The notes beneath the pieces are model-generated. The model saw nothing but the letters and a program-made list of their open reading frames with translations. It did not search any database and was not told the origin of the DNA. Source: Ianthella basta (taxonomy: Eukaryota; Porifera; Demospongiae; Verongiida; Ianthellidae). From it: a stretch of DNA of 64,000 nt. The DNA is taken from NCBI GenBank assembly GCA_964019415.1, contig OZ025887.1:1-64000 (forward strand). The letters are read 5' to 3'. Shown here piece after piece: positions 1 to 40,682 of this stretch; position 1 is the stretch's first letter, and every line of letters begins with the position of its first letter. The position numbers and the translations under genes were made by a program.

Positions 1-931
1 GCTGCTGCAGCACCTGGCGCTGCACCTAAACACTCACCGACCAGCTTTGGTCGGCCCGGCCAGCACTACGACCCTCTTCCTGGTCAGTACACCCCCACAC
101 ATACATAGTACACCCCCCACGAACACTTGCATTTTAATTGCCCCTCTTCCTCAGAATGAGAGGGGAGCACCCTATACAGCTGGCAGCTGGACCTCCTACG
201 TTGAGGGCACCCTGGAGCGCCACACGGGCAGAAGGATAGGGCCCACCATGATCCGATCCATCTTTGTCACCCACTGCGAAAGGGTAGGCCTCTCAGAGGC
301 AGAAAAGGAAGCAATGGCAGCATCTATGCGCCACAGCAGGAGAGCGGTGAGCGCCCCATGGACCAGGCACCATGGAGAGCACAGCAGATGCATTCACTCG
401 ATTACCTACATACGTGAAGTGACATGTGTCCCACCCCCACCCCTCTTGCAAATGTAGCAGAAGGAGCACTATGACAGGAGGTCACAGGTGGACAGGGAGA
501 GCAAGGGACAAGATTACACTGCCCGTCTGTTACAGAAGGCCCTTGCAACAGGGAATGGACCCAAGGAACCTGACGTGACCAGGGACCCCTCCCAGCCCGG
601 GCCTTCCCATTTGAATCCGGTGCCCACCAACAATGACAGCGACGCAGACTCAGATGGGCCGAACCTGGGAGATTTGGTGGCCATTGTGCTGCCAGGGTCA
701 ACACCAGTGAATCCTGTGGTCGAGTTAGGGAAGGTCTTGCGGATAAACCAGACCGACATTAGCTACCTGCCCTTTCAGGATATCGGTGGTAGCAACTACC
801 GCTGTACAGCAGGTCGGCTTGGGAAAGCGGTGCGAGACCGGATCGTGTTTCCGGTTGGGGTGAACTACAACCCCGACACCAAACTCTACACACTGCTATC
901 TGATAACATTGACATCCACAATGCCATCTAA
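1..931 (+). CDS. Tyrosine recombinase, copy 0 (3' part only)
   Basis: This is the C-terminal end of a multi-exon tyrosine recombinase that starts outside the window. The exons I infer are 2-82, 155-346 and 461-931, each with a GT donor and AG acceptor and all in phase 0. The second exon holds the box II region (IRSIFVTHCE, then MRHSRRA) and the third opens with KEHYDRR, whose Tyr (470-472) is the probable nucleophile. The usual first His of the H-x-x-R motif is Thr (TMIR). After an acidic Ser/Asp linker comes a compact C-terminal domain (GDLVAIVLPG to the stop) that looks like a small beta barrel, possibly nucleic-acid binding. I counted about 45 of 64 identical residues against the matching exon of the gene at 14968-18260, so this is a diverged paralogue and not a recent duplicate. 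No stop or frameshift is seen in the visible part. Confidence 0.8.
779..844 (+). repeat. Source copy of the 66-bp captured exon segment
   Basis: These 66 bases of the last recombinase exon reappear unchanged and in the same orientation at 1173-1238, as the loop of an inverted Penelope-derived insertion. In the gene the segment encodes part of the C-terminal barrel domain. Confidence 0.9.
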
Positions 932-1944: not shown

Positions 1945-2127
1945 TTACACTGAGATGGGCCATGAAGAGAATCACCTTAATCCTCCCCTAGGGAGTGATA
2001 AGGTGGCGGGTGTGCGCTCACCACGCAAGATGAGGAGTGCCATCATGGGAGAACGGGTCCAAGCATCATCTTTTCACTCCCTCGGCGAGGATTAAGGCGA
2101 TTCCTTTCGAGACCCATCTCAGTGTAA
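1945..2127. mobile_element. MITE with about 54-bp terminal inverted repeats
   Basis: A 183-bp segment begins TTACACTGAGATGGG and ends with its exact complement CCCATCTCAGTGTAA. The inverted match continues inward at roughly 80 percent for about 54 bases (CCTTAATCCTC and GGGAGTGA blocks). No coding capacity is present, so it is non-autonomous. I could not find a convincing target-site duplication, so the superfamily is not assigned. A half copy in the opposite orientation lies at 4556-4637. Confidence 0.7.
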
Positions 2128-2159
2128 TCAGCTGCGGGTAGGAATGGCCCTGCCAAATC

Positions 2160-3480
2160 AGTGCCCCTCACTCCTCATGTACCCATCATGCGCGGATGGA
2201 TCCATCTGTGAATGATGGATGCATGCCCAACATGATTGCACATGGGTGGATGCGATGGAATGCATCCACAATGAGTTTGGTCCATGCCCATGTGCATGCT
2301 CCATGCATTGAAGTCAATGCATGAGAATGCACATGAGCATGCCATGCAAGGAAGAATTATGTACATGGGCATGTCTGATTGCATGCATACCCTTCCCCTA
2401 AGCCCATGTCATGACACTGCGCTTGACCCCATGCGTCATCATGCATCTTGGATGCGATGGATCCCATGACCTTGGGGTGACAAATGTATATTAAGGCAAT
2501 GCATGTATATACACTGCTTATAGGCTGTAAGCAGGTGCCGGGGGAAACCCCCCTCACAAACCTCCAGTCATCACTTCTGATGCATCCCACATGCACAGAT
2601 GGATCCCTCTGGGCATGTGGGATGCATTGATGGATCCATCCATGCATGATGGATGGATGTATCATGAAATGGTACATTGTCAGATGTGCCATGATGCCTT
2701 CCCGATGCTGTCCACCTTCTTCTCATTAGCTGCATACAGTCTTCAAGCAGGTGACAAAGACAATGCCCCAAACAAACTTGCGGCAGTTGTTCCCACATAG
2801 ACAGCACTGCCATGCTGTATGTTCAAATGCCACTGTTGGACCCCATGAATAGCTCATGTGGACAGCCATCTAATTGCATTCCTAGCTAGCTAATTGGCAC
2901 CCCATCTAGAGCTTCTCATTAGCATTCTATCACACATGAACATTAGACACTGTCTGCCTTCCTGCATGCAGTCTGTAAGCAGGTGACAGAGACAATGCCC
3001 CATGCAAACCAACTGGCGGCGGTTGTTCTGAAGTGGGCCGGGCGCAAATGTGTGAAAGAATATATAAAATTTTAGAAAGTCCTCCAGCAGCAGTACATAT
3101 CAGCTCTTGCACAACTAGCCCAACTATAACTCCACCCACCCCCACGCCCTTTCGCCATGCATCTTGACACGTCCAGCCATTGGACCATGCAATGCAAGTG
3201 GAAATAGGGATGGCTGCATGTAGGTCCCCAGGGCAAGTCCCCTCACCAAGACCCGGCCATCACTCCTGATGCATCCATCATGCACAGATGAATCCCTCTG
3301 GGCATGATGGATACACGTGTCATGACATTGCACATGACCCCATGTGTCATCACGCATCTTCGATGCGATGGATCCCATGCATGACCTTGGGAATACATGT
3401 ACATTGCAATGTACCAGCCTGTCCTGCTAGCCCCTCCCAGTATACAATGTCCTGCTTACCCCTCCACTTGGAGATGCATT
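2160..3480. repeat. ATGCATCC-rich dispersed repeat modules
   Basis: The region is dominated by words such as ATGCATCC, CATGTGCA and GGATCCCTCTGGGCATG. A module containing CACATGCACAGATGG or a close variant recurs near 2585 and 3270 and grades into the 193-bp tandem array at 3.9-4.5 kb. A second module with GATGCGATGGATCCCATG recurs near 2450 and 3362. The short open frames are out of phase with each other and look like repeat artefacts. Confidence 0.5.
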
Positions 3481-3883: not shown

Positions 3884-4541
3884 CGCATGGGTCATGTGCA
3901 ACGTCATGACACATGCATCCCACATGCCCAGAGGGATCCATTTGTGCATGATGGGTGCATGAGGAGTGAGGGGGTGGTGAGTTTTAGGGGATTGTCACCC
4001 ATCTGTATCTACATCTATATACCCAATATGTCCCTACGTGCATGGCATGATCCATGTGCATGATGCATGAGGACACATGGGCTCATGTGCAATGTCATGA
4101 CACATGCATCCCACATGCCCAGAGGGATCACTCCATGCATGATGGATGCACGAGGAGTGAGGGGGTGGTGAGTTTTAGGGGATCGTCACCCATCTGTATC
4201 TACATCTATATACCCCCAATATGTCCCTACGTGCATGGCATGATCCATGTGCATGATGCATGAGGACACATGGGCTCATGTGCAATGTCATGACACATGC
4301 ATCCCACATGCCCAGAGGGATCACTCCATGCATGATGGATGCACGAGGAGTGAGGGGGTGGTGAGTTTTAGGGGATCGTCACCCATCTGTATCTACATCT
4401 ATATACCCCCAATATGTCCCTACGTGCATGGCATGATCCATGTGCATGATGCATGAGGACACATGGGCTCATGTGCAATGTCATGACACATGCATCCCAC
4501 ATGCCCAGAGGGATCACTCCATGCATGATGGATGCATGTCT
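3884..4541. repeat. 193-bp tandem repeat
   Basis: The phrase GAGGAGTGAGGGGGTGG recurs at 3962, 4152 and 4345, giving units of 190-193 bp that are almost identical in the last two copies. A partial leading copy starts near 3884. Each unit contains CATGCATCCCACATGCCC and a TATCTACATCTATATACCC block. The open frames repeat with the unit and are not counted as genes. Confidence 0.85.
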
Positions 4542-4555
4542 TGGATGCATGCATC

Positions 4556-4637
4556 TTGCGCGGTGAACGCACACCCGCCACCTTATCACTCCCTTGGGGA
4601 GGATTAAGGTGAGCCTCTTCAGGGCCCATCTCAGTGT
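4556..4637 (-). mobile_element. Half copy of the 183-bp MITE
   Basis: Read on the minus strand this matches the left half of the MITE at 1945-2127, from CACTGAGATGGGCC through the CCTTAATCCTCC and GGTGGCGGGTGTGCG blocks to GCGCAAGATG, then stops in the middle of the element. The other half is missing. Confidence 0.7.
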
Positions 4638-4728
4638 CAATTGTGTACGGCTACGGTCTTCGGTGAACATCTTGCATCCTGCATGAGGAGAACAGAGACC
4701 GCTGAGACATGCACACACACTCACAGGT

Positions 4729-4736
4729 GCACACAC

Positions 4737-4799
<63 letters not shown>
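4729..4799. repeat. (CA)n microsatellite
   Basis: A nearly pure CA tract on the plus strand, just to the left of the minus-strand hammerhead ribozyme at 4860-4920. Confidence 0.95.
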
Positions 4800-4801
<2 letters not shown>

Positions 4802-4859
4802 TGCATCAGACAAGCACAAGCACAATCGCCAAGCTCAAATATGGCATCAATTGCAGGGA

Positions 4860-4920
4860 ACTGCAGACTATGGCATGAGTATGCCATAGTTTCGACCTGT
4901 TTGGGTCTCATCAGTGCAGT
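4860..4920 (-). ncRNA. Hammerhead ribozyme, type I, CA/TG-flanked
   Basis: On the minus strand every element of a hammerhead is present: stem I ACTGCA/TGCAGT, core CTGATGA, stem II GACC/GGTC with loop CAAACA, GAAA, a 9-bp stem III CTATGGCAT/ATGCCATAG with loop ACTC, and the cleavage triplet GTC. Predicted self-cleavage falls between the bases at plus positions 4866 and 4865. Stem I is the open stem, which makes it type I. Flanks are TG-rich in the sense direction, as at the other hammerhead loci here. It is probably a solo retrozyme copy. The fold is inferred by eye. Confidence 0.85.
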
Positions 4921-4928
4921 GTACCCTG

Positions 4929-4930
<2 letters not shown>

Positions 4931-5007
<77 letters not shown>

Positions 5008-5023
5008 CCATTGAAGGGACGTG

Positions 5024-5107
<84 letters not shown>

Positions 5108-5112
5108 TGTGT
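4931..5112. repeat. (CA)n then (TG)n inverted microsatellite
   Basis: A CA tract (4931-5006) is followed after 14 bases by a TG tract (5021-5112, with one C interruption). The two are mutually complementary and could form a hairpin or cruciform of about 75 bp. The flanking CA tract touches the hammerhead at 4860-4920. Confidence 0.95.
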
Positions 5113-5315
5113 CACACGAGTGGATTAGTCGGTTCCAACATATGCACATAATATTGCCACCAACACCGCCCCCACAATCCATTTACACACAGATTACACA
5201 CCTTCGAGTGATTACCACCCTACCTATATGTTGACACTTTCCCTAACCTTATATGGTGCCTGTGGATAGGGCACACACTTGCAGGCACAGACATCAAAGG
5301 CTAGCATGGCATGCA

Positions 5316-5356
5316 GGGGCCATCTTGTGGGAGGGGCAAGGGCCCAGCTATAAAAG
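5316..5356 (+). promoter_or_regulatory. Recombinase promoter: YY1-like site and TATA box
   Basis: GGGGCCATCTTGTGGG (5316-5331) contains a YY1-type core CCATCTTG and lies 95 bases before the start codon at 5411. TATAAAAG follows at 5349-5356. The recombinase gene at 14968 has the near-identical GGGACCATTTTGTGGG 96 bases before its own start, so the element and spacing are conserved between diverged copies. Confidence 0.65.
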
Positions 5357-5410
5357 GGGCTGCAAGTGGAGGTGCTACATCCATGTCTAAGACCCAGGAC
5401 AAAGGCAACC

Positions 5411-7185
5411 ATGTCCAACGCCCAGTCTCCAGAGGAAATGATGCAGCTGGTGTTGAGGGCTGCTTTTGCTTTAGCCACCAGGGCACAGGGAGGTCCTCCT
5501 GGCAGACAGCAGAGCAAGGATGCAGAAGAAAGCTCAGCAGAACACTCCAAAGGTAAATGGTAATCCAACCATGCCTCACAAAGTTCTTGACAGCTTGCTG
5601 ACTGGGTTAACTGGATCCAGTGTTGGTGGCATGACAACTGCACTACCAATCATTCACATGCCGGCGGTACTCACTACAAAACTGCTATCCATCTAATAGG
5701 TGTTGCCTCTACTGCCATCCTACCAACACCGGAGCCAGTTATCCCACCAGGACAGGATCCAGCTAACCCACCAACACAGGATCCAGCTGTCCCACCAAGA
5801 CAGGAGCCGGATAGCCCACCAACACAGGATCCAGCTGTCCCACCAAGACAGGAACCGGATAGCCCACCAAGACGGGATCCAGTTAACCCACCAACACTGG
5901 ATCCAGTTAACCCACCAACACTGGAGCCAGCTATCCCACCAAGACAGGATCCAGTTGGCCCACCAACACAGGATCCAGTTAACACAATAAGACAGGATCC
6001 AGATAGCCCACCAAGACAGGATCCAGTTAACCCACCAAGACTGGATCCAGCTATCCCACTAACACAGGATCCAGTTAACCCAATCAGACAGGATCCAGAC
6101 AGCCCACTAAGACAGGATCCAGTTGGCCCACCAAGGCAGGATCCAGCTATCCCACCAACACAGGATCCAGTTAACCCGCAAAGACTGGATCCAGCTAGCC
6201 CACCAACACAGGATCCAGTTAACCCGCAGAGACTGGATCCAGCTAGCCCACCAACACAGGATCCAGTTAACCCACCAAGACTGGATCCAGCTATCCCACC
6301 AAGACAGGATCCAGTTAACCCACCAAGACAGGATCCAGTTAGCCCACCAACACAGGACCCAGTTAACCCACCGAGACTGGATCCAGTTAGCCCAGCAAGA
6401 CAGGACCCAGTTAACCCACCGAGACTGGATCCAGTTAGCCCACCAACACACTCGCCCTCTCCCCCCTGCCCCTCCTCAGACAGTGATGACGACGACTATG
6501 AGCCAGCACCTAAGATGCCGCGGCGAGACAAGGGGGGACGGGCAAGGAACTACCTGAACGTCCATCAGTACCCGGCCCTAGAGAGTCGGATGGAGCAGAT
6601 GAGAAGCTTCTACGTGGATCCTGTCAGTCTGCGGAGGGAGGGCGATGCCATCAGTCTCGTGACATGGAACAAGGTCTCCCTCCACATTCTGTGTGAGTCA
6701 CCTCCATATGGGGAGAGGGTGTGGCTGCAATGATTTTCATTTGTCAGTAATTATACTTGACTCTTAATTAACAATGCCTTGCCGTGGAGTTGTTGTAATG
6801 GGAATCATGACTGTCAGATAGAACTTAGGGTGGGTGCTCACTGATGCCCATCTGCCTGTCCACCTCCAGTGTTCCTGGCCTATGTTAAAGACACCCTGGG
6901 CAAGACACCAACACTAGACTGTCTGAGGAGTGAAGAGATGATCCAACAGTTTGTCCAGTCTCTAGTGAAGAAAGGGATACTAGGCAGCACCATAGCCCAG
7001 TACGTGGACCACCTCCAATACGGCCTACGCTACCTCTACTGCAAAGATCACATTAAGAACTACAAGCAGGAGGAACTTTACATCACTCTGGCCAGGCTGC
7101 GGGAAAAGTTCCGCAAGCAAACTGCGCATTCGACAGCTCAGCAGAGCTGGCAAGCTCTGGAGGCAAAGAACAAGTGGATTGAATG
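5411..7185 (+). CDS. Tyrosine recombinase, copy 1 (5' half, truncated)
   Basis: The inferred exons are 5411-5552, 5700-6692 and 6870-7185, with phases 1, 1 and 2 matching those of the complete gene at 14968. The first exon encodes a short leader (MSNAQSPEE...FALATRAQGG). The second is mostly a Pro-rich octapeptide repeat, then an acidic DSDDDDY stretch and a basic PRRDKGGRARN patch that could be a nuclear localisation signal. The last part encodes the helical N-terminal core-binding domain, ending KNKWIEW. A possible 3' splice site at 6478-6479 means the repeat may be joined differently. The donor at 7186 (GTGAGT) is intact, but no catalytic exon follows; a GGGAC minisatellite takes its place. 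The catalytic Arg, His and Tyr are therefore absent and the copy is probably non-functional as a recombinase. Confidence 0.75.
5727..6450 (+). repeat. 24-bp coding minisatellite (octapeptide repeat)
   Basis: About 30 units of 24 bp, each close to CCACCAACACAGGATCCAGT plus four bases, encode PP(T/R)(Q/L)DP(V/A)(N/I/S). The frame is open across every unit, and the unit length is a multiple of three, which suits a translated linker. The gene at 14968 has an unrelated repeat, TETGTEHPP, at the same place. Confidence 0.9.
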
Positions 7186-8600: not shown

Positions 8601-9053
8601 AATGTCCCTTTAACCTAACCCTAAACCTATTTTGTCCCTCAGGTTCACAATTGAATCTGGGGGACAGTAAACTGCCATGAGGGACACTATTAACCCCTGA
8701 AGGGACAATTGTAAAAGTCCCTCATCTTTACCTAATTTGTCCCTCAGGTTCACAATTGAATCTGGGGGACAGTAAACTGCCATGAGGGACACTATTAACC
8801 CCTGAAGGGACAATTACCTAATTTGTCCCTCAGGTTCACAATTGAATCTGGGGGACAGTAAACTGCCATGAGGGACACTATTAACCCCTGAAGGGACAAT
8901 TACCTAATTTGTCCCTCAGGTTCACAATAGAATCTGGGGGACATTAATCTGCCATGAGGGACACTATTGACCCCTGAAGGGACAATTGTAGAAGTCCCTC
9001 ATCTTTAACCAGTTTGTCCCTCAGGTTCACAATTGAATCTGGGGGACAGTTAA
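8601..9053. repeat. About 85-107-bp tandem repeat with GTCCCTCAGG
   Basis: Five units start with GTCCCTCAGGTTCACAATTG (or a one-base variant) near 8633, 8740, 8825, 8915 and 9016, and contain CTGCCATGAGGGACACTATT. The array continues the GGGAC theme but is a separate unit from the 292-bp repeat. Confidence 0.8.
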
Positions 9054-9640
9054 CTCACATGAGGGACTTGAATGGAAGCATTCAAATTATTCTAAGTGTC
9101 TAACCCTAACCCTAACCCTAACCCTAAGGGACTTTACCTTAACCCTAAAGGACACTTTCTTCACAACAATCACAAACTGTAACAAGCCCTAACCCTAACC
9201 CTAACCCTAACCCTAACCCTAAGGGACTCTTATTCTAACCCTAAAGGACATCCAACTCACATGAGGGACTTGAATGGAAGCATTCAAATTATTCTAAGTG
9301 TCTAACCCTAACCCTAACCCTAACCCTAAGGGACTTTACCTTAACCCTAAAGGACACTTTCTTCACAACAATCACAAACTGTAACAAGCCCTAACCCTAA
9401 CCCTAACCCTAACCCTAACCCTAAGGGACTCTTATTCTAACCCTAAAGGACATCCAACTCACATGAGGGACTTGAATGGAAGCATTCAAATTATTCTAAG
9501 TGTCTAACCCTAACCCTAACCCTAACCCTAAGGGACTTTACCTTAACCCTAAAGGACACTTTCTTCACAACAATCACAAACTGTAACAAACCCTAACCCT
9601 AACCCTAAGGGACTCTTATCCTAACCCTAAAGGACATCCC
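9054..9640. repeat. About 200-bp tandem repeat with embedded telomeric repeats
   Basis: Three units start CTCACATGAGGGACTTGAAT near 9054, 9250 and 9457. Each holds two internal runs of CCCTAA, of about 4-6 copies, at 9102-9126, 9189-9227, 9305-9331, 9392-9424, 9507-9532 and 9594-9608. The telomeric runs are therefore part of the amplified unit. Confidence 0.85.
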
Positions 9641-10240
9641 AGCCAACCTGTAACCCTAACATGCCCTGAGGGACAACAATTTTTGTAATGTCCCCAATAG
9701 GTCAAACTTACCCAGGGACACTCCCGCATAATTGTCCCCAATAGCATAAATGGGACCCCATGGGGTCCCACATGAGGGACACACAGATGTTAATGTCCCC
9801 CATAGGTACCCTAACCCTAACACCTATGGGGGACTTTTGCCCAATTGATGACTATGAATTAATCAGTTAGACAGAGAAATACATTATTGCAATATAAAAC
9901 GTGACATCATTAATACTATGAGGGACATTTACCACAATTACCCCCAACTCTCAGCTTAACCGAAAGTGACTGAAATACTTAGTGCAATTTCCAATTCCAG
10001 CCCCGACCCTAACCCTGAGGGACACCAAGGCATATGTCCCTCATCCAGGCGATGGACATGAGGGACATTTAGCAACACCGAGGGACACTGTAGAATTGAG
10101 GGACACTAATCAATGTCCCCCAGGGCCTCCCAATACACCTGAGGGACATTAAGCAATTTTCACACACCCTCTGGGGGACAACAGGGGACATTTAGGGAGG
10201 CCCCTGGGGGACATGTCCCTAGATTACCAGGGCCCTAACC
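9641..10240. repeat. Dispersed GGGAC words, no clear unit
   Basis: GAGGGACA, GGGGGACA and TGTCCC words remain frequent but no regular unit is visible. Short CCCTAACCC runs occur near 9810, 10008 and 10232. No coding sequence is recognised. Confidence 0.55.
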
Positions 10241-10370
10241 CTAACGTGACCCTTTGCTATCCCGTGTTCAGCAACCCCAAACTATCTACAACCCTTTGAG
10301 AAAAGCGCCTAACCCACCAAACCCTAACATTACACGCTAAAGCATAACATGCGCGCGCGTACACACTTAC

Positions 10371-10453
10371 TTTAGCGAAGACACGATGCCTGGGAAACCC
10401 TCCAGAGCGCCAGGAAAAAAAAACGCCGCGTGCACCAGCTTCTCGGAGGCCAT
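10371..10453 (-). CDS. Candidate first coding exon with promoter
   Basis: On the minus strand an ATG in good context (GAAAATGG, ATG at 10453-10451) opens 27 codons, MASEKLVHAA to SSLK, ending at a consensus donor GTAAGT (10370-10365). Upstream on the same strand are an E-box CACGTG (10479-10484), a GC box (10495-10502) and a perfect CRE TGACGTCA (10510-10517). I do not recognise the peptide, and no downstream exon is visible in the GGGAC island to its left. It may be the first exon of a real gene, or a promoter left behind by rearrangement. Confidence 0.35.
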
Positions 10454-10478
10454 TTTCTTCGTCGTCTTGGTAACTAAG

Positions 10479-10573
10479 CACGTGTGCCTTAGCACCGCCC
10501 CCTGGGCTGTGACGTCACGCAATGTATTAAAGATAGCATGGGTGCAGCACCCATGCGAACTTTGACCCTCCAT
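10479..10573 (-). promoter_or_regulatory. Promoter-like cluster: E-box, GC box, CRE, palindrome, DR1
   Basis: In 95 bases there are CACGTG, CCGCCCCC (GC box on the minus strand), TGACGTCA, a 21-bp palindrome at 10536-10556 and GAACTTTGACCCTC at 10557-10570. The last is, on the minus strand, a DR1-type nuclear receptor element similar to the HNF4/RXR consensus. The sites are seen directly; the function is inferred. Confidence 0.5.
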
Positions 10574-11824
<1,251 letters not shown>

Positions 11825-11846
11825 GGTGTTCAACTGCATGGGGTAC

Positions 11847-11907
11847 GCTGCACTGACGAGGCCCAAAGAGGCTGAAACTCTGCTACTGTAGTAGCAGAGT
11901 CTGCAGT
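11847..11907 (+). ncRNA. Hammerhead ribozyme, type I, TG-flanked
   Basis: On the plus strand: stem I GCTGCA/TGCAGT (one G-U pair), core CTGACGA (fits CUGANGA), stem II GGCC/GGCT with loop CAAAGA (one G-U pair), GAAA, a perfect 9-bp stem III CTCTGCTAC/GTAGCAGAG with loop TGTA, then T and C giving the cleavage triplet GTC. Self-cleavage would fall between 11901 and 11902. TG tracts lie on both sides in the sense direction. The three stems differ from the 4860 copy by paired changes, which supports a conserved RNA fold. Confidence 0.8.
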
Positions 11908-11951
11908 TCCCTATTATAGGGTATGCATTATGCATTACTGTGCACATGTCC

Positions 11952-11953
<2 letters not shown>

Positions 11954-12002
<49 letters not shown>
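11954..12002. repeat. (TG)n microsatellite
   Basis: A pure TG tract downstream of the hammerhead at 11847-11907, so that the ribozyme sits between two TG tracts. Confidence 0.95.
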
Positions 12003-12005
<3 letters not shown>

Positions 12006-12439
12006 TAGTATTGTAGCTCTCTCCGACATTATCTGCAGGTCTGCAGCTGACTGGAACCGTTTTATTGTCCTACGTGATGGAGAAGCAAAGAGAGTCATAG
12101 AACACATTTAATTGAGACTTGCACCATTCATTGCATGCACACAACCGCACTGCACCTTCTTGCAATTGGTGTAACCCTTTAAATCATTTAATTATTTGTT
12201 GCACTAATGGTCTATATTAACCTGAGGTATTTGCATGAGCTGCAGGAGTCCCTGTTGATTAGTGCAATTGATCTAATATAACAGCTTGAGTAATTAATGT
12301 AGCTTGCATATCAATAAATATCAATATCAATAAATATTTAAGTGCACCGTACCCATAGGTACTAGGACACCACGTGGTCCAATGCAGCACTGCACAAATT
12401 AAAAAGGATAGGGATAATACTATATATTATTACCATATA
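12003..12439. other. AT-rich non-coding spacer
   Basis: No gene, array or structured RNA is visible. A short run of ATCAATAAATATCAATATCA near 12310 is the only repetitive element. Confidence 0.4.
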
Positions 12440-12811
12440 TTAAACTGAACACGGCATATTTGCTTGCACATGCACATTCACATTCAACAGCACATGACTC
12501 TGGTGGACAGGAGAGTGTTCACCAGTAATATTTAATGTTATGCACATACGGCTTGCTGCATACCTTTGGAAAAGCGCTGCTCGGTCGAATAGTATTTTGT
12601 TGCAGCTCCCGGATTGCGCAATCGCATAAATGGCTGCAGCCCCCGTCTTCTGCAAAATCGGCGTCGCCTGCCCGGTAAACGCAGAAAGGCTTCTGCACGA
12701 AATTAGCTTCATTCGATAGCCATAGGAGATCAGTCTTGGTGTGTGATGTTTAGGCGCTTGGACTGCTTCATCGCCGTGCAGCACAAGGCTGTCTGCCTTG
12801 TCCCTGTACAT
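12440..12811 (-). CDS. Unrecognised open frame downstream of palindrome/DR1
   Basis: The minus strand is open for 123 codons from the ATG at 12811 (MYRDKADSLVLHGDEAV...). The central part (SAFTGQATPILQKTGAAAIYAIAQSG) has a protein-like composition, but no family is recognised. It starts 24 bases past the DR1-type element at 12822-12835 and the palindrome at 12835-12855. It could also be a chance frame. Confidence 0.25.
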   Translation of the reverse strand: MYRDKADSLVLHGDEAVQAPKHHTPRLISYGYRMKLISCRSLSAFTGQATPILQKTGAAAIYAIAQSGSCNKILFDRAALFQRYAASRMCITLNITGEHSPVHQSHVLLNVNVHVQANMPCSV

Positions 12812-12821
12812 AAGGTATAGC

Positions 12822-12855
12822 GGGGTCAAGGGTCACATGGGTGCTGCACCCATGT
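12822..12855. promoter_or_regulatory. DR1-type element next to 21-bp palindrome
   Basis: GGGGTCAAGGGTCA (12822-12835) is two GGGTCA half-sites one base apart, the DR1 layout bound by RXR/HNF4-type receptors. It joins a palindrome with the core CATGGGTGCTGCACCCATG (12836-12854). The same pair, in inverted orientation, is at 10536-10570. Confidence 0.5.
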
Positions 12856-13475
12856 CGCGGCAGTCTTAAAAAAGAGTCGGGCGTGGGTATGCGTGTGTGT
12901 TTTCCAGGCGTGGGTATGCGTGTGTGTTTTCCAGTGTTCTGTGCGCGTCTGGATGGTTCAACAGCAGATCTGTCGTCGGTGATGTCGGTTTTCGCTCCCA
13001 TTCTGTCCTGGACCCGTGTCCAGGCTGAAAATCGGGCGTTAGGGCTCTAGCTCGCCGACAGCGGTTTGAACAGGGCTTCGGGGTTAGATTAGCAGTCGTG
13101 TGTGATAGTTGTCTCTTAGTTTTTGTGTGTTTTGACGGTTTTGATGACGATTTGACGGCGCCCATACGACGAGGTCATCGTTACGAGGCGTTCGTTCGCA
13201 TTACACTCCAGGGGGAGGTCATCTGGCGGAGTGGCCACACTCCTGGCACTTGCCTCTACCCTTCCGACATGCTGGTGCTCCCTTGTCTGCAAAGGCTCGT
13301 GCTGGCAGCAATGCGAGGCCACCTTACATAGCATATACGCAACCACACGCGCACTATCATAATAATAATTTTATCTTGCATGCAATATGGCCGAAGGTGG
13401 TCATAAGGCAAGTGGAGAACATGCACATGCATGCAGTTGATACTTGATGGCCTTGGTATGCAGTCATGCATGCAT
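12856..13475. other. Non-coding stretch with a 27-bp duplication
   Basis: The phrase GCGTGGGTATGCGTGTGTG plus TTTTCCAG is present twice in tandem at about 12881-12934. Otherwise no gene or array is supported. Confidence 0.4.
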
Positions 13476-13530
13476 TCACTCTTGCCCACACCTACCCACC
13501 CACCCACACATACATGCAAACAATGCTGTA

Positions 13531-13588
13531 ACTGCAGACGGCTTCAATAATGAAGCCGTTTCGCCCTTCTGGGGCTCATCAGTGCAGT
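13531..13588 (-). ncRNA. Hammerhead ribozyme A
   Basis: Minus strand: stem I ACTGCA/TGCAGT, CTGATGA, stem II GCCC/GGGC with loop CAGAA, GAAA, 8-bp stem III CGGCTTCA/TGAAGCCG with loop TTAT, cleavage triplet GTC. Predicted cut between plus positions 13537 and 13536. All core bases match the hammerhead consensus. Confidence 0.87.
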
Positions 13589-13634
13589 GCTCAAGCCAAT
13601 TCACAGTCACACGCATGCACAGTCACACGCACAA

Positions 13635-13994
13635 GCAAGATGAGGCAAGATGTGGCAAGATTAGGTAAGATGAGGCAAGATATAGCAAGATTAAGCAAGA
13701 TGAGGCAAATGAGGCAAAATGAGTCAAGATATTGCAAGATGAGGAAAGAAATAGCAAGATGAGGCAAGATGAGGCAAGATATAGCAAGATTAAGCAAGAT
13801 GAGGCCAGATGAGGCAAGAAATAGCAAGATGAGTCAAGATATTGCAAGATGAGGCAAGAAATAGCAAGATGAGGCAAGATGAGGCAAGATATAGCAAGAT
13901 AAAGCAAGATGAGGCAAGATATAGCAAGATGAGGCAAGATATTGCAAAGATGAGGCAAGAAATAGCAAGATGAGGCAAGATGTGGCAAGATTAG
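13635..13994. repeat. 10-bp satellite block (GATGAGGCAA) inside retrozyme array
   Basis: About 36 monomers of the same family that fills 31.6-40.7 kb, including its variants GATATAGCAA, GATATTGCAA and GAAATAGCAA. The block starts and ends with GATGTGGCAAGATTAGG-type monomers and interrupts a hammerhead unit, whose left stem I strand is missing at the right border (13995). Confidence 0.9.
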
Positions 13995-14043
13995 GGCTTC
14001 AATAGTGAAGCCGTTTCGCCCTTCTGGGGCTCATCAGTGCAGT
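13995..14043 (-). ncRNA. Hammerhead ribozyme B, truncated
   Basis: Core CTGATGA, stem II, GAAA and stem III are identical to the neighbouring copies, but the GTC triplet and the 3' strand of stem I are replaced by satellite sequence. It should not self-cleave. Confidence 0.75.
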
Positions 14044-14135
14044 GCTTGCTCAAGCAAATTCACAGTCACACGCACTCGCCACTGGAGCACCCGCCCACAC
14101 CTACCCACCCACACCTACACGCACACAATGCAAAA

Positions 14136-14193
14136 ACTGCAGACGGCTTCAATAGTGAAGCCGTTTCGCCCTTCTGGGGCTCATCAGTGCAGT
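14136..14193 (-). ncRNA. Hammerhead ribozyme C
   Basis: Same fold as copy A with stem III loop CTAT. Predicted cut between plus positions 14142 and 14141. Confidence 0.87.
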
Positions 14194-14285
14194 GCTTGCT
14201 CAAGCAAATTCACAGTCACACGCACTCGCCGCTGGAGCACCCGCCCACACCTACCCACCCACACCTACACGCACACAATGCAATA

Positions 14286-14343
14286 ACTGCAGACGGCTTC
14301 AATAGTGAAGCCGTTTCGCCCTTCTGGGGCTCATCAGTGCAGT
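14286..14343 (-). ncRNA. Hammerhead ribozyme D
   Basis: Identical to copy C over its 58 bases and exactly 150 bp further on. Predicted cut between plus positions 14292 and 14291. Confidence 0.87.
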
Positions 14344-14435
14344 GCTTGCTCAAGCAAATTCACAGTCACACGCACTCGCCGCTGGAGCACCCGCCCACAC
14401 CTACCCACCCACACATACACGCACACAATGCAATA

Positions 14436-14493
14436 ACTGCAGACGGCTTCAATAGTGAAGCCGTTTCGCCCTTCTGGGGCTCATCAGTGCAGT
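14436..14493 (-). ncRNA. Hammerhead ribozyme E
   Basis: Identical to copies C and D, again 150 bp on. Predicted cut between plus positions 14442 and 14441. The repeat homology ends at about 14512, where an AT-rich TATAAATAAA sequence begins. Confidence 0.87.
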
Positions 14494-14702
14494 GCTTGCT
14501 CAAGCAAATTCATATAAATAAAAAAATAAATAAGGAGCACCATAATAATTTGGCTATAGGAGAAACACACAGGAACGCTTAACCACTATTTGTATTGTCA
14601 TTTGTAAGCTGGAATCAGTGTGATTCGAATGAAAAACAACTAAATTCCTAACCCACCACCGACCCACCACAGGCATGCATGGCAAAGGGCATGCACGTAC
14701 AA

Positions 14703-14887
14703 GGGGCCATCTTGTGGGAGGGACAACGCAATGACATCGCCCAACCTGGGGGACATTAGGCCAGGAATTAATCAGTTTGTTATTTGCTCAGTGGAGCTGT
14801 TTGTTGTGATTTGTGGTCGCAACAGTGGAGCTGTTTGTTGTGTTGTTGTGGTCGCAACCAGGAATGCAGATGGGACCATTTTGTGGG
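14703..14887 (+). promoter_or_regulatory. Promoter of complete recombinase gene, two YY1-like elements
   Basis: GGGGCCATCTTGTGGGAGGG at 14703-14722 is identical to the element of copy 1. A second, GGGACCATTTTGTGGG, at 14872-14887 is 96 bases before the start codon, the same spacing as in copy 1 (95). A short tandem repeat (CAGTGGAGCTGTTTGTTGTG) lies between them. A GGGGGACATTAGG phrase near 14750 echoes the GGGAC island. Confidence 0.6.
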
Positions 14888-14967
14888 CAAGGTCTAGGCT
14901 AGCCCACAAAAGGAGGCGCCCATACAGCCAGTGCATTAGTCCAAAGAGAAAGAAGCGCAAGTTGACA

Positions 14968-17900
14968 ATGGCGGGCAAAGAGGACCTCTTTTGGAAACTT
15001 CTGTGGAAATCGGCTTTTGCCCTGGCGGCACAGGGCTCACAAAGAGGTATGAGCAGTCCCTACAACACCACAATGGCCGGCTAACCTTAATCCCTAACAG
15101 TTTCAATCACTGATACCTTCAATACCAAGCCACCTATGTACGTACGTACGTACCTACCTAATATACCTACCTACCTACCTACCTACCTACCTACCTACCT
15201 ACCTACCTACCTACCTACCTACCTACCTACCTACCTACCTACCAAAGTAGAAATCACTGATACCTTCAGTACCAAGCCATCTACCTACCTACCTACCTAC
15301 CTACCAAAGTAGTAATCACTGATACCTTCAGTACCAAGCCATCTACCTACCTACCTACCTACCTACCTATACCTACCTTCCCACAGGCAGACAAGGAGGT
15401 GCATCCATCCATGAGCACCCCACAGAGACTCCCCCACAACTCCACACCCCTGAGACCCTTCCCCACCCCACTGAGGCTCACCAACAGCCCTACCCCGCTG
15501 AGACTGGCACAGAGCTCCAGCCTACCGAGACGGGGACAGAGCACCCGCCCACTGAAGTGCCCACGGAGCACCAACCCATTGATACTGGGACCGAGCACCC
15601 ACCCACAGAGACGGCCACGGAGCACCAACCCACTGAGATGGCCACCGAGAACCCACCCACCAAGGCGTCCACAGAGCACTCGCCCACTGAGACCGGGACA
15701 GAACACCCACCCACTGAGACCGGGACAGAACACCCACCCACTGAGACCGGGACAGAACACCCACCCACTGAGACCGGGACAGAACACCCACCCACTGAGA
15801 CCGGGACAGAACACCCACCCACTGAGACCGGGACAGAACACCCACCCACGGAGACCGGGACAGAACACCCACCCACTGAGACGGCCACAACACACCAATC
15901 CACCCCAACAAGGTCTCACACACACCAACCCATCCATCTTAAGAGAAACACTGCATGCCCACCTCCCTCACACTGTTTACATTGCAACAGAAATTTCATA
16001 GCCATACATACATACATACATACAAGTGAATTGGCGGCATAAATGCATTACATATGCGGCTTCTCTCTTACGCAGCAGTGACAGTGATGGTGGTAGCGAC
16101 TACCAGCCACCAGCCAAACGGCGGCATCAAGGGACTCCCTCCAATAAAGGAGGACGCACGAGGAGCTACCTCGATATCCATGCTCCAGAGCATGAGGCAC
16201 TACGCGAGAAAATGGACAAAATGAGGCGCTTTTTCACGGACCCGGTCAGCCTACAGAGGGGCCGGGACCCCATTGCATCAATCACATGGGAGAGAGTACA
16301 GCTGCACCATCTACGTAAGTCAGTGTACCTGCCACTTGTTACCCACCCATCCCCACGCACACAGACTATGCCAGAGGCTCCACACTACGTACGTAGATCA
16401 CACATCATGTCTGTCTACACACTGTACAATTGAGACCCCCTCACCCGCTAATCCCTTTCCCTCGCACACACTTAGTCTTCTTTGCATACGTAAAAGAAGA
16501 ACAGCAGACCAGCCCCGCCCTTGAGTGCCTCTTGGACGCTGAAATGATTGAGGGGTTCGTGTTAACCCTGAAAGAAAAGCCTCTCCAGGGCATCACCATT
16601 TCACGATACCTCGAAAACCTGAGGTATGGCCTACGCTACCTCTACATAAAGGATGGAAAGGAGTACAGCGAGCAGGAGCACTACATAAACGTGGGCAGAC
16701 TCGGGGAGCAGTGCCGTAGGCAGGTCGTCTCCTCTACAGCACGCCGAAGCTGGCAAGCATTGCAAGCACAGCAGAAGTGGGCCGAATGGTGAGTCTGAGG
16801 GGGATTTGACAACTTTCAGTGGTGGGCTAAGTGTCAAAGCTATACCAAAGAGTTGCATTGGAGCAACTCAAAGCCTTACATATACCTACTCCACGGCGTC
16901 CATGCCACCCTCCCCTACCCTCCTCCCTTCTCTATGCAGGGATGACATTCTGGCCGCAGTCAAAGAGCAGAAGGGTCTCTTTGAAGGAGCAACCCGCCCC
17001 CGCATAAAGGCCCAGGAGTCTCAGAAACTACTGGCCATGCTCTTCTACACCGCCCTCCCACCTGGCCGTGCAAAGGAGTTCCAAACGTTACACGTGGCCA
17101 TCCACGACAAACTACCTATGCCAGTGGTGGACCAAGCGAGGCCAAACTGCCTCTACATCACTACGGATGGCAGGCAAGCCTACCTTCTATTGGCCGATTA
17201 CAAGACTCACAAGAGTTACGGGGACCACTTCCTCCCCCTGGACGATGACAGTCAGCTATTGAGTCACCTTGTGATACACCTAAGTCACCACAGGGAGGTC
17301 CTGCTGGGAGCAGGACAACAGACCACTGCCCTCTTCTTAGTGAGTACAAGACATACATATAACTATATATATGGTACACCTATGCATGTATACACCGCCA
17401 CCGGAATCACCGCTATCACCATCACAGTGCAGTTGTCGTTCTCTAACTCAATTCTTTCTTTGGTACAGAACGATAGGGGAGCACCATACAGTGCCAGTTC
17501 GTGGACTGCCTACATTGAGGGAATCTTTGAACGCCACATTGCGAAAAAGATTGGCCCCACTTTGCTGAGATCCATTTTCGTTACCCACTGTGAGAAGTCA
17601 AACCTTTCAGAAGCAGAAAAGGAGTCTATGGCCACAGCCATGCGGCACAGCAGGCGAGCGGTGAGCAAGCACTGACATGTGCATTCAAACCCTACTCACT
17701 CCATTGCAACCAGCATGCACAAACATATGTCCACCCATGAACCTATGCCTACCAACTTTAACGTGAATCCCTATCCACTCGTGAATATGCAGCAAAAAGA
17801 GCATTACGACAGACGCACACAGGTGGACAGGGAAAAGAAGGGCAGGAAGTACACCGGAGGCCTACTTGAGAAGGCCCTGTCCTCGGCAACCACCACCACT

Positions 17901-18260
17901 GAGGACTCGGCCGGGCCATCCACCAGAGAGCCACCAACTGACAGCGACAGTGACAGTGACAACGAAGGACCTGATCTAGGAGACATTGTCGCAATCGTGC
18001 TGCCAGACTCCACCGCAGTGAAGCCAAAAGTTGACGTGGGCAAAGTCATGCGGATTGACAAAGCCAAGACGACGCTCAGGTATTTGCCACTCAACCACGT
18101 TGGAGGTAACAGATACCACTGCAAACTCGGGGATATACGGAAAGCCACTGTGGATCAGTGGGTATATCCCGTAGATTTCCAGTACAAAGCCACAGAGAAC
18201 ACCTATCAACTCCTATCCACCCCAACAGAAATTCACCTACACAAACACCCACTTACATGA
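14968..18260 (+). CDS. Tyrosine recombinase, complete seven-exon gene (Crypton-like)
   Basis: Exons 14968-15046, 15387-15912, 16076-16314, 16476-16788, 16940-17339, 17469-17660 and 17793-18260 join without a stop into 738 codons. Order: short leader, Thr/Pro/Glu-rich repeat (about residues 28-200), acidic SSDSDGGSDY, basic AKRRH patch, helical core-binding domain (about 225-386), catalytic domain, acidic linker, and a beta-barrel-like C-terminal domain (about 644-728). Catalytic candidates are Arg429 (PPGR), Lys474 or Lys477 (YKTHK), Arg553 (LLRS), His579 (RHS) and Tyr588 (EHYD); the first His of H-x-x-R is Thr550. Tyrosine recombinases cut and rejoin DNA through a covalent Tyr intermediate, probably in the nucleus here. 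The start is chosen by alignment to copy 1 and promoter spacing; an in-frame ATG also exists at 14731. The intron at 17340-17468 is open in frame, so retention is possible. Either a Crypton-type transposon gene or a host gene derived from one. Confidence 0.8.
15150..15355. repeat. (CTAC)n tetranucleotide arrays in intron 1
   Basis: A long CTAC tract to about 15242 is followed by two shorter ones, each preceded by a copy of AATCACTGATACCTTCAGTA. All lie in the first intron of the complete recombinase gene, just before its acceptor at 15386. Confidence 0.9.
15540..15890 (+). repeat. 27-bp coding minisatellite (TETGTEHPP repeat)
   Basis: About eight near-identical 27-bp units (ACTGAGACCGGGACAGAACA plus seven bases), preceded by diverged units, encode the nonapeptide TETGTEHPP. 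The unit is a multiple of three and the frame is open throughout. It holds the same place in the protein as the unrelated octapeptide repeat of copy 1. Confidence 0.88.
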
Positions 18261-18998
18261 CTCTGTTTAAAATTTGCTATCACCCACTATCAACGACTGT
18301 ACCTGTTGCATTAGCAATTTGTAATCATGACGGTAAGCATGTGTAGCGATCCATCCACGACACCTAACTTCACGATGGCACCCGATTATGCGCAATAGAA
18401 CGACGGCATAGAATAGAGACTAGGTAGCAAATTTGGGACCTAAATTGTCACTGAGGAGCAGCTGGTCTAACGCCACACAACACCTAACTACTACACATGT
18501 ACATAGTCACTACGTGGTGCGTGCTGGGGGAGACTCACCTATGACCGACGCTAAGGCTGTGGCTCTTTGGCTGCATGTGCACAAGACAACACATATGTAA
18601 ATGATTTCCGTACAACCAAACCTATCGGGCAAAACGTACTGTAGGCACAAGAGGACTTGATGGTGGGCCATAAGTGCATTCCTACGCAGATATGCTATGT
18701 TTCATAGGGCTAAAGCGCGTCCATGGCGCCTGATTCTGACTATACCCCAACTGCACCTTAGCAGAAAGGTCTACGGCGAGTCTACAGCGCCGTTTCTAGG
18801 GACAGGAGGCCTCCATGGTCATTTCTAGAGAGCTAAGGCTAGCATAGAATGCTTGCTGTGCATACAATACGTGGAATTGCAGCATAAAAGGACTGTGGCG
18901 AGTCTACAGCGACGTTTCAGGGCACATGAGGCCTCAATGTCTACTACAAGCGAGCTCAGACAAGTCTACAACGCACGCCTTCCGCGCTGAAGATAGAA
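18261..18998. other. Non-coding spacer with a worn duplication
   Basis: No gene is supported. A roughly 120-bp imperfect duplication near 18770-18975 shares GCGAGTCTACAGCG and GAGGCCTC words. Confidence 0.4.
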
Positions 18999-19680
18999 CC
19001 CTAACCCTAACCCTGGCCATGGAGTGACCCTGGTTTTGGGGTTATTGGGGTTTTGGAATCTAGACTCGGGACGGCGACCTGAACATTTTGGCAAAAAAAA
19101 TTTTCTGCGCGGGGTTGGGGTTTGGGGTTTCCAAAATTTTTTGACCCCTTTCAAAATGATCCTAAGCTCGCGTCTGATGCTTATCAGCAATAAAAATTTT
19201 GGGCCACTCGCTGGTGGAATTTTGGGCCGCAATGGCCCATTTCGTCCGCTTTGGACTAGGGATCCCCATCTTTTGGGAATTGCTTCGTCAAGGTAAGTTG
19301 ATGTTCCCTGTAAAAAAAATTGCAATTCCGCGCAGTATTTTTTTGTGGGGCAAACTTTTCTGAAAAATGGGCCACCATTCAAAAAGTGTTCAGAAGTGCT
19401 ATTTGAATACACTTTTACACTTTTCAGGCAGATTTAAAATTTTGGGGTTAAATTTTGTCCAAAAGTGGCCCATTTTTTTCTTTTACCAAACGCATCCAGA
19501 CTGGTTCCTTGATGCTTTGCAAGTGTTTTGACAAGTTTTGGGTTATTATTAAAGAATTTTGCCTCTTTTTGGGCCACAGTGGCCCATTTTTTATTTTTGC
19601 TCCAGGGTTGTCCCAATATCACATCTGATGCATTTTTACCGTTTTGGGTAGAAATCAGGGTTTTTAACAAATGGGTTATT
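18999..19680. repeat. Start of GGCCCA island
   Basis: A short CCCTAACCCTAACCC run at the left edge is followed by GGGGTTTTGG-type sequence and then TGGCCCATTTTT words. Diverged inverted copies of the 115-bp unit occur at about 19560-19690. Confidence 0.55.
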
Positions 19681-21689: not shown

Positions 21690-22030
21690 AAAATGTGGCC
21701 CAGAGCCCACGGACCTCAGAGGCCCGGAATATCCGCAGTGGTGACCCATTTTGCCAGGAAGAGTGGCCCAAAAGTGGAATGAAAGGTGGCCCAAAAAATA
21801 GAAAGTGGCACATTTTGGTGGCCCAGAATCTCAAAAGTGGCACATTTTGAAATGGGCCAAAGTGACCCAAAATTGGCTAGGGTGGCCCGGAAATCCGCCC
21901 AGTGGCCCAAAATTGCGGCGGGGTGGCCCATTTTGACAAAACGGTGGCCCAAAACGGCCTCCGGTGGCCCGAAATGGGCCACTAACGATGGCCCTAACCC
22001 TAACCCTAACCCTAACCCTAACCCTGGCCC
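21690..22030. repeat. GTGGCCCAAA cluster ending in telomeric repeats
   Basis: GTGGCCC recurs every 15-30 bases to about 21970, then five CCCTAA copies (21991-22024) close the block. The same arrangement, GTGGCCC words followed by CCCTAA repeats, occurs again at 28611-28967. Confidence 0.8.
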
Positions 22031-28610: not shown

Positions 28611-28967
28611 GTGAAACTGGACTGCAGTGGCCCAAGTGCAGTGGCCCGTGAAATTCCAATGAGGCCAAAGTCACCCAGGTTGTGGCCCAATTTTAGCGGC
28701 CCCAAAAAAACAGAGTGGCCCGGAAACTATCAAAAGTGGCCCAGAACACTCTTACAGTGGCCCACTTTCAGTGGCCCAGGAATTCCCACAGTGGCCCGGG
28801 ATTTTTCAAAAGTGGCCCAGGAATGTCAAAAAGTGACCCGAGGATCGGAAAAGTGACCCAATTTGGCCAAAAATGGCCCAATTTTGGGCTACTTTCATGG
28901 CCCTAACCCTAACCCTAACCCTAACCCTAACCCTAACCTTAACCCTAACCCTAACCCTAACCCTAAG
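28611..28967. repeat. GTGGCCC cluster ending in telomeric repeats
   Basis: GTGGCCC recurs about every 20-35 bases to 28900 and is followed by about eleven CCCTAA-type copies (28902-28967), one changed to CCTTAA. The order matches 21690-22030. Confidence 0.85.
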
Positions 28968-40500: not shown

Positions 40501-40682
40501 TGGAAGATGATGCAAGATATTGCAAGATGAGGCAAGAAATACCAAGATGAAGCAAGATGAGGCAAGATATAGCAAGATTAAGCAAGATGAGGCAAGATAT
40601 AGCAAGATGAAGCAAGATGAGGCAAGATGAGGCAAGAAATAGCAAGATGAGGCAAGATATAGCAAGATGAGGCAAGATATTG
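31591..40682. repeat. 10-bp satellite, GATGAGGCAA type
   Basis: About 900 monomers of 10 bp. From 31.6 to about 32.8 kb the monomers are mostly GATGAGGCAA, GATGAGACAA and GATTTGGCAA. Further right they mix in an ordered way with GATATAGCAA, GATATTGCAA, GAAATAGCAA and GAAGAAGCAA, giving higher-order units of several monomers. On the minus strand no monomer contains a stop in any frame, so very long hydrophobic frames (LASSCLILPH) arise automatically. Confidence 0.96.

Follow-up and report, generated by a model that had tools for sequence, protein, structure and literature searches.

Hammerhead ribozymes of eukaryotic mobile DNA are tied to retroelements in the literature that we examined. Animal retrozymes carry hammerheads of type I, have tandem repeats 150-450 bp in length and show a G+C content below 50% (PMC7229834). 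TATE elements are recombinase elements that lie in tandem within GGG^TTA repeats, with RT/RH (PMC6681497); a review (PMC7761336) was also used for comparison. Among the titles and abstract beginnings listed in searches of the open-licence literature, we found no description of telomeric hammerhead-recombinase elements such as the one reported here; the papers listed for hammerhead ribozymes together with tyrosine recombinases were one review on giant transposons and one on optogenetics.

The window, that is, the whole 64,000-nucleotide stretch analysed, opens contig C20 of the Ianthella basta genome (209 Mb, 96 contigs).

A minus-strand array of type I hammerheads

The initial annotation had placed four hammerheads on the minus strand of the window, each with the conserved bases, three stems and a GTC triplet, and three of them exactly 150 bp apart. 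Reading of the sequence and a strict hammerhead descriptor confirmed all of this, and the array and its surroundings comprise the following features:

13531..13588, minus strand: hammerhead in a diverged array copy, predicted cleavage 3' of 13537 (C17)
13635..13995, no strand: 10-bp GCAAGATGAG-type minisatellite that separates ribozyme copies (TRF)
13982..14049, minus strand: truncated fifth hammerhead, in which the minisatellite replaces the cleavage site and the 3' side of stem I
13995..14512, minus strand: 150-bp hammerhead array with three cleavable copies and the truncated one
14136..14193, minus strand: type I hammerhead (descriptor), predicted cleavage 3' of 14142 (C17)
14286..14343, minus strand: type I hammerhead (descriptor), predicted cleavage 3' of 14292 (C17)
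14436..14493, minus strand: type I hammerhead (descriptor), predicted cleavage 3' of 14442 (C17)

Each of the four array hammerheads has CUGAUGA, GAAA and the GUC triplet, with a stem I of 6 bp, a stem II of 4 bp and a stem III of 9 bp. The conserved core, the three stems, the NUH triplet and the open stem I of type I are all present. TRF gives a period of 150, 3.5 copies and 99% matches for 13995-14512. Predicted cleavage sites are spaced by 150, 150 and 605 nt, the third interval being longer because the minisatellite sits inside it. The array hammerheads look like working ribozymes, with self-cleavage predicted. Cutting into 150-nt monomers, also claimed earlier, holds as a prediction from sequence and covariation, but only two such monomers are predicted to be cut out of the array in the window. 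Other whole arrays in the fetched stretches have three cleavable copies (four in L054) and the diverged copy. By its sequence, the ribozyme array is real; the kind of ribozyme is known and the setting is new.

Three further hammerheads had been overlooked. One is the truncated copy at 13982-14049, which meets the minisatellite directly before its cleavage triplet. The other two are single hammerheads, with cores at 4866-4914 (minus strand) and 11853-11901 (plus strand); CA repeats flank the first and GT repeats the second:

4854..4926 (core 4866-4914), minus strand: B-solo, a single hammerhead on the strand opposite to the ORF at 5591, with cleavage predicted 3' of 4866
11841..11913 (core 11853-11901), plus strand: single hammerhead A-solo, on the same strand as the gene of element A (below), predicted cleavage 3' of 11901

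Evidence for the hammerhead fold

The strict descriptor gave a background of 1 match in 50 first-order-Markov simulated windows. Two intact copies were folded, with z-scores of -3.90 and -3.12; that of the truncated copy was -1.83. The covariance-model search by which the initial annotation had proposed to check the hammerheads gave a divided answer. No family reached its gathering score in an Rfam search of the window, but two models matched all four copies below threshold when 2001 bases were searched: Hammerhead_HH9, with a cut-off of 52, at 26.6-29.4 bits (E from 8.7e-5 to 6.7e-4), and RAGATH-1, with a cut-off of 56.3, at 31.1-32.5 bits (E 0.005-0.01).

Comparison between hammerhead types showed that both partners had changed in 7 of 19 pairs between the array and A-solo (11853), in 6 of 19 between the array and B-solo (4866) and in 5 of 20 between A-solo and B-solo. 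No pair was broken in stems I and II, which were compared at fixed length (6 + 4 pairs); stem III was followed only while pairing and is therefore incapable of showing a break. These compensatory changes support the hammerhead fold. The diverged copy at 13.5 kb shares 58 of 59 ribozyme bases with the array; in the flanks, identity falls to 103 of 138 ungapped columns (Fisher p 1.5e-5). Within each hammerhead type there are almost no variants (exact-pattern counts in the fetched 10-kb stretches), and the evidence for selection therefore consists of the between-type comparisons and the diverged copy. Compensatory change, together with conservation confined to the ribozyme, speaks for past selection on the fold.

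An element abutting telomeric repeats

The 150-bp array is one component of a larger repeated unit of ~8.8 kb, which we call element A:

10233..19014, gene on plus strand: element A, ~8.8 kb, bounded on either side by CCCTAA telomeric repeats and arranged head to tail within clusters

This block was present in 14 of 18 fetched 10-kb stretches at ~96-100% identity; with copies so alike, their common layout represents few independent events, and the independent comparisons are those of family A with family B (below) and of the array with the single copies. The 150-bp unit matched the genome 159 times (40 of 111 candidate places scored). Array loci are clustered, many of them near contig ends, and contig C74 has six arrays at steps of ~8.9-9.0 kb; clusters of element A lie mostly near chromosome ends.

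The block starts with CCCTAACCCTAACGTGACCC and finishes with GAAGATAGAA followed by CCCTAA. After the fixed GAAGATAGAA, the number of hexamers ranges from 1 to at least 24, with seven following contexts (13 places in 19 stretches including the window). Counted as whole hexamers, the 13 places have one (six times), two (twice) and 3, 6, 8, 21 and at least 24 (once each). On the left side, four contexts join the block at 2-3 hexamers. The fixed ends, which abut CCCTAA in several contexts, fit insertion at one place within telomeric hexamers; the tracts are often only 1-3 hexamers long.

TTAGGG arrays were found at the ends of contigs C9 and C11. At the former, close to the end of the contig, CCCTAA gives way to TTAGGG within 8 bases (L051:8208-9984), so that telomeric repeats meet head to head. 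On ten contigs of known length, selected because they yielded loci, 13 of the 20 ends carry one or more array, A-solo or B-solo sites within 70 kb. Arrays on these contigs read toward the nearer end in 19 of 24 cases and away from it in 5, four of which form one cluster on C4 and one of which lies on C13. The four exceptional C4 arrays belong to a cluster at 235-270 kb; a second cluster, at 287-296 kb, faces it in the opposite orientation, which looks like the meeting of two chromosome ends. Element clusters that face each other inside this contig (C4:214-299 kb) are what chromosomes fused end to end, or a join made in assembly, would show.

Within the window, CCCTAA also forms interstitial tracts, at 9104-9531, 21992-22021 and 28901-28966. 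A 202-bp repeat at 9052-9608 (2.8 copies, 99% matches) has short CCCTAA tracts inside. We also detected a GCAAGATGAG-based array of 9 kb (31597-40678), the motif of which recurs between the ribozyme copies at 13635-13995, and 22 kb of a 35-bp minisatellite (42059-64000).

A recombinase-like gene

Plus-strand ORFs from 15.3 to 18.3 kb hint at one spliced gene:

15323..16039, plus strand: Pro/Thr-rich repeat ORF that is probably the N-terminal exon of the gene
16002..16430, plus strand: ORF that, by eye, resembles the ORF at 5591 over one stretch (RTRSYLDIH / RARNYLNVH)
16397..16788, plus strand: candidate exon with a weak SAM-like integrase domain (E 0.029, below cut-off)
16940..17660, plus strand: candidate recombinase core exon (LPPGRAKE, RSIFVT, MRHS), which may contain a further intron
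17793..18257, plus strand: candidate last exon, with a C-terminal domain and, in HYDRRT, the putative catalytic tyrosine

The gene seems to have introns, and its model reads, in order, LPPGRAKE, DYKTHKSYG, RSIFVT, MRHS, a possible GT-AG intron and HYDRRT, which we take to be tyrosine-recombinase motifs. Motifs that may correspond to the catalytic R...H...R...Y were picked out by eye in the spliced model, with no profile match. The SAM-domain match in Pfam stayed below cut-off in a second search as well (E 0.11), and sequence searches of Pfam, NCBIfam, PHROGs and PDB gave no integrase match for the catalytic part. Across the genome, PF00589 had 40 matches, 0 of them in element A; relatives sought in viral and prokaryote contigs gave 5 and 31 pattern matches, 0 confirmed. 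On its motifs, we describe the gene as tyrosine-recombinase-like. The core-exon ORF has 123 matches in the genome, 42 of which are full length at 99-100% identity, and 39 of these 42 lack a stop.

No RT-like ORF, be it a TATE-type RT/RH or a Penelope-type RT, was seen among the unspliced ORFs of 10233-19014; of the 60 that reach 60 aa, 15 were compared with Pfam. To the left of 15260, no ORF is longer than 195 aa, and the one of that length is the ribozyme repeat itself. RVT_1 is common in other parts of the genome (of 3653 candidates, 150 were scored), which decides nothing on RT in the element.

A second family (B) encodes a recombinase ~65% identical to that of A and is found in tandem on contig C67, at steps of ~7.95 kb (one of 7.57). 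Three ORFs in the window probably belong to it:

2..352, plus strand: fragment of a recombinase, probably that of family B, with 63% identity to A
458..928, plus strand: C-terminal ORF that resembles 17793-18257 by eye and is probably from family B
5591..6730, plus strand: proline-rich N-terminal ORF, probably family B

No B recombinase core was found within 4.5 kb downstream of the B-solo hammerhead of the window (4854-4926). Recombinase relatives of 38-39% identity at C23:21836-22606 and C18:6890508-6891173 suggest further families.

Strand and position of the hammerheads

For each hammerhead, we took the nearest gene match downstream in the direction of the gene, within 5 kb for the array, 7 kb for A-solo and 4.5 kb for B-solo. 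Of 40 array loci, 39 have the array upstream of the recombinase gene and opposite to it in strand; none has the two on the same strand, and one has no gene nearby. A-solo is on the gene strand in 39 of 41 cases and on the opposite strand in none, with two lacking a gene. B-solo is opposite to the gene in 13 of 41 cases and on the same strand in none (28 of 41 without a B gene within 4.5 kb). Distances to the gene are 2365-3435 for the array (median 2597), 4300-5962 for A-solo (median 4839) and 2080-3167 for B-solo (median 2559, similar to the array); they are measured to the lower end of the gene match and are therefore accurate to ~1 kb.

The 40 array loci are a scored subset, and exact cores in the genome total 245 (115+130). 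Among the first 100 listed of these 245, 98 are in clusters that also hold recombinase matches and one (C7:9539317) is 36 kb from a contig end; the last, C2:7801816, is the sole one of the 100 away from element clusters and chromosome ends.

The sequence itself shows hammerhead folds preserved through compensatory change, hammerheads with a constant place and strand within the element, and element ends meeting CCCTAA repeats in one orientation.

Hammerheads elsewhere in the genome

A hammerhead-core pattern had 402+414 matches genome-wide and none with the reversed control, and RF00163 gave at least 18 matches, 13 of them over cut-off (73 of 23027 candidates scored). Among the first 100 core-pattern matches listed were five divergent pairs, 228-433 bp apart: 307248(-)/307681(+), 1966655(-)/1966894(+) and 3926743(-)/3927058(+) on C1, and 9491495(-)/9491723(+) and 10922774(-)/10923188(+) on C2. 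The same 100 included two convergent pairs (374 and 511 bp) and two same-strand pairs (368 bp). L004:982-2157 is an inverted repeat whose arms are 99.4% identical over 516 bp and bear one short-stem-III hammerhead each; a third hammerhead lies 366 bp from one of them.

Possible role and origin of the ribozymes

Our leading reading, to which we give about even credence, is that element A is tyrosine-recombinase-like and inserted in telomeres, that the hammerheads have been inherited as part of it, and that they cut the read-through RNA of both strands. Points against it are the 28 of 41 B-solo sites that lack a B gene in reach, the five of 24 arrays that read away from the nearer end, the 6 of 13 places where a single whole telomeric hexamer follows the unit, the motif-based recombinase label with its sub-cut-off SAM-domain match, and the absence of a gathering-score Rfam match in the window. 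From sequence, we infer transcription, cleavage and a link to TERRA in the following form. The element would be transcribed from both strands by read-through along its head-to-tail copies. The sense hammerhead at 11853 would cut RNA arriving from a neighbouring copy or from the telomere, ahead of the recombinase gene, and would so separate the transcript of one element from the next. On the other strand, the array upstream of the gene would cut G-strand RNA running toward the telomere, which may rid the gene of antisense RNA and would free two or three 150-nt pieces per array. With CCCTAA on the gene strand and TTAGGG on that of the array, outward RNA of the array strand would hold UUAGGG, as TERRA does, and the last ribozyme would set the 5'-hydroxyl end of the remaining TERRA-like RNA. 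A bolder form, which we think rather unlikely, is that the ribozymes process chromosome-end RNA at large: the antisense arrays would fix 5'-OH ends of TERRA at many telomeres and free 150-nt RNAs, and the sense hammerhead would trim the element message, making this a DNA-recombinase element with ribozymes on both strands.

The main rival is that the array is an animal retrozyme, non-autonomous and moving via small circular RNAs, that was once inserted in the element and has since been copied along with it. We regard this as possible though doubtful, and it is compatible with the proposed use in RNA cutting. The initial annotation had called the array retrozyme-like and had put a 150-nt unit at the small end of animal retrozymes. 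The second point stands: type I hammerhead tandem repeats of 150-450 bp are already described in the available text of PMC7229834, and 150 is therefore their known lower edge. The period of the array accordingly falls within the tandem-repeat size of animal non-LTR retrozymes, which is a point for a captured retrozyme. Further points for this origin come from other hammerheads: the core plus stem II pattern matches the genome 816 times (0 for the reversed control), 79 of the first 100 matches listed lie outside the C2 end clusters, single hammerheads stand between GT or CA repeats in both orientations, and chromosome-internal L008 carries a relative with the same stem I. The likeness to retrozymes is supported for the hammerheads and the 150-bp tandem layout; an independently moving repeat is not supported. 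Dispersed independent insertions were not found, the array being confined to one element position in 39 of 40 loci, with 1 of the first 100 listed of 245 cores elsewhere. The G+C content of the monomer, 56.7%, is above the retrozyme range (<50%), and a special circular fold was rejected, since the monomer folds at -49.2 kcal/mol as compared with -47.7 +/- 3.8 for shuffles, 68 of 200 of which were as low. Family B, moreover, also has an antisense hammerhead at a similar place.

We consider it quite improbable that the unit is a passive subtelomeric repeat whose ribozymes are relics without a present role, homogenised by recombination between chromosome ends. Such homogenisation would suit the likeness of the copies (~96-100%), the three or four array copies, as from unequal exchange, and a region full of minisatellites; the signs of past selection on the fold described above speak against it. 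That the element is a Terminon or another Penelope-like telomeric retroelement, with a hammerhead that exposes telomeric repeats for end attachment, is scarcely credible: it is telomere-associated, head to tail and hammerhead-bearing, as Terminons are in the available text of PMC6431247, but no RT ORF was seen among the ORFs searched (15/60 in Pfam), the hammerheads are 1.6-4.3 kb from the nearer element end instead of adjoining telomeric repeats, and the gene appears to have introns.

Comparison with known systems

Two families with a recombinase-like gene and no RT seen, apparently inserted in telomeric repeats, keep hammerheads in opposite orientations, with signs of selection on the fold. 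Cryptons have R...R...H...Y-like motifs and introns, for both of which element A has candidates. In these YR transposons, as would be the case in element A, a recombinase is the sole recognisable enzyme. The word ribozyme is absent from PMC3212892, the passages of which that we examined do not describe insertion in telomeric repeats; the gene of element A has no profile match.

Animal non-LTR retrozymes, in what is available of Cervera and de la Pena 2020 (PMC7229834), share with the array the type I hammerhead, the tandem repeats and the predicted cutting into monomers. They differ from it in that the array sits at a fixed site of a larger element and has 57% G+C and an ordinary circular fold. 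Terminons, the rotifer telomeric Penelope-like elements, resemble element A in being telomere-associated, head to tail and equipped with hammerheads; according to the accessible part of PMC6431247, they encode RT and have a 3'-end hammerhead beside telomeric repeats, whereas in element A no RT was seen and the hammerheads are internal and mostly antisense.

The trypanosomatid telomere-associated YR element TATE (PMC6681497, available text) is alike in its tandem clusters at one place in telomeric hexamers and in its recombinase gene. Unlike element A, in which none was seen, it also encodes RT/RH, and its paper mentions neither hammerhead nor ribozyme. The sponge element would extend telomere-targeted recombinase elements beyond trypanosomatids; it would also offer a direct test of what genomic hammerheads do, and would tie them to telomeric RNA.
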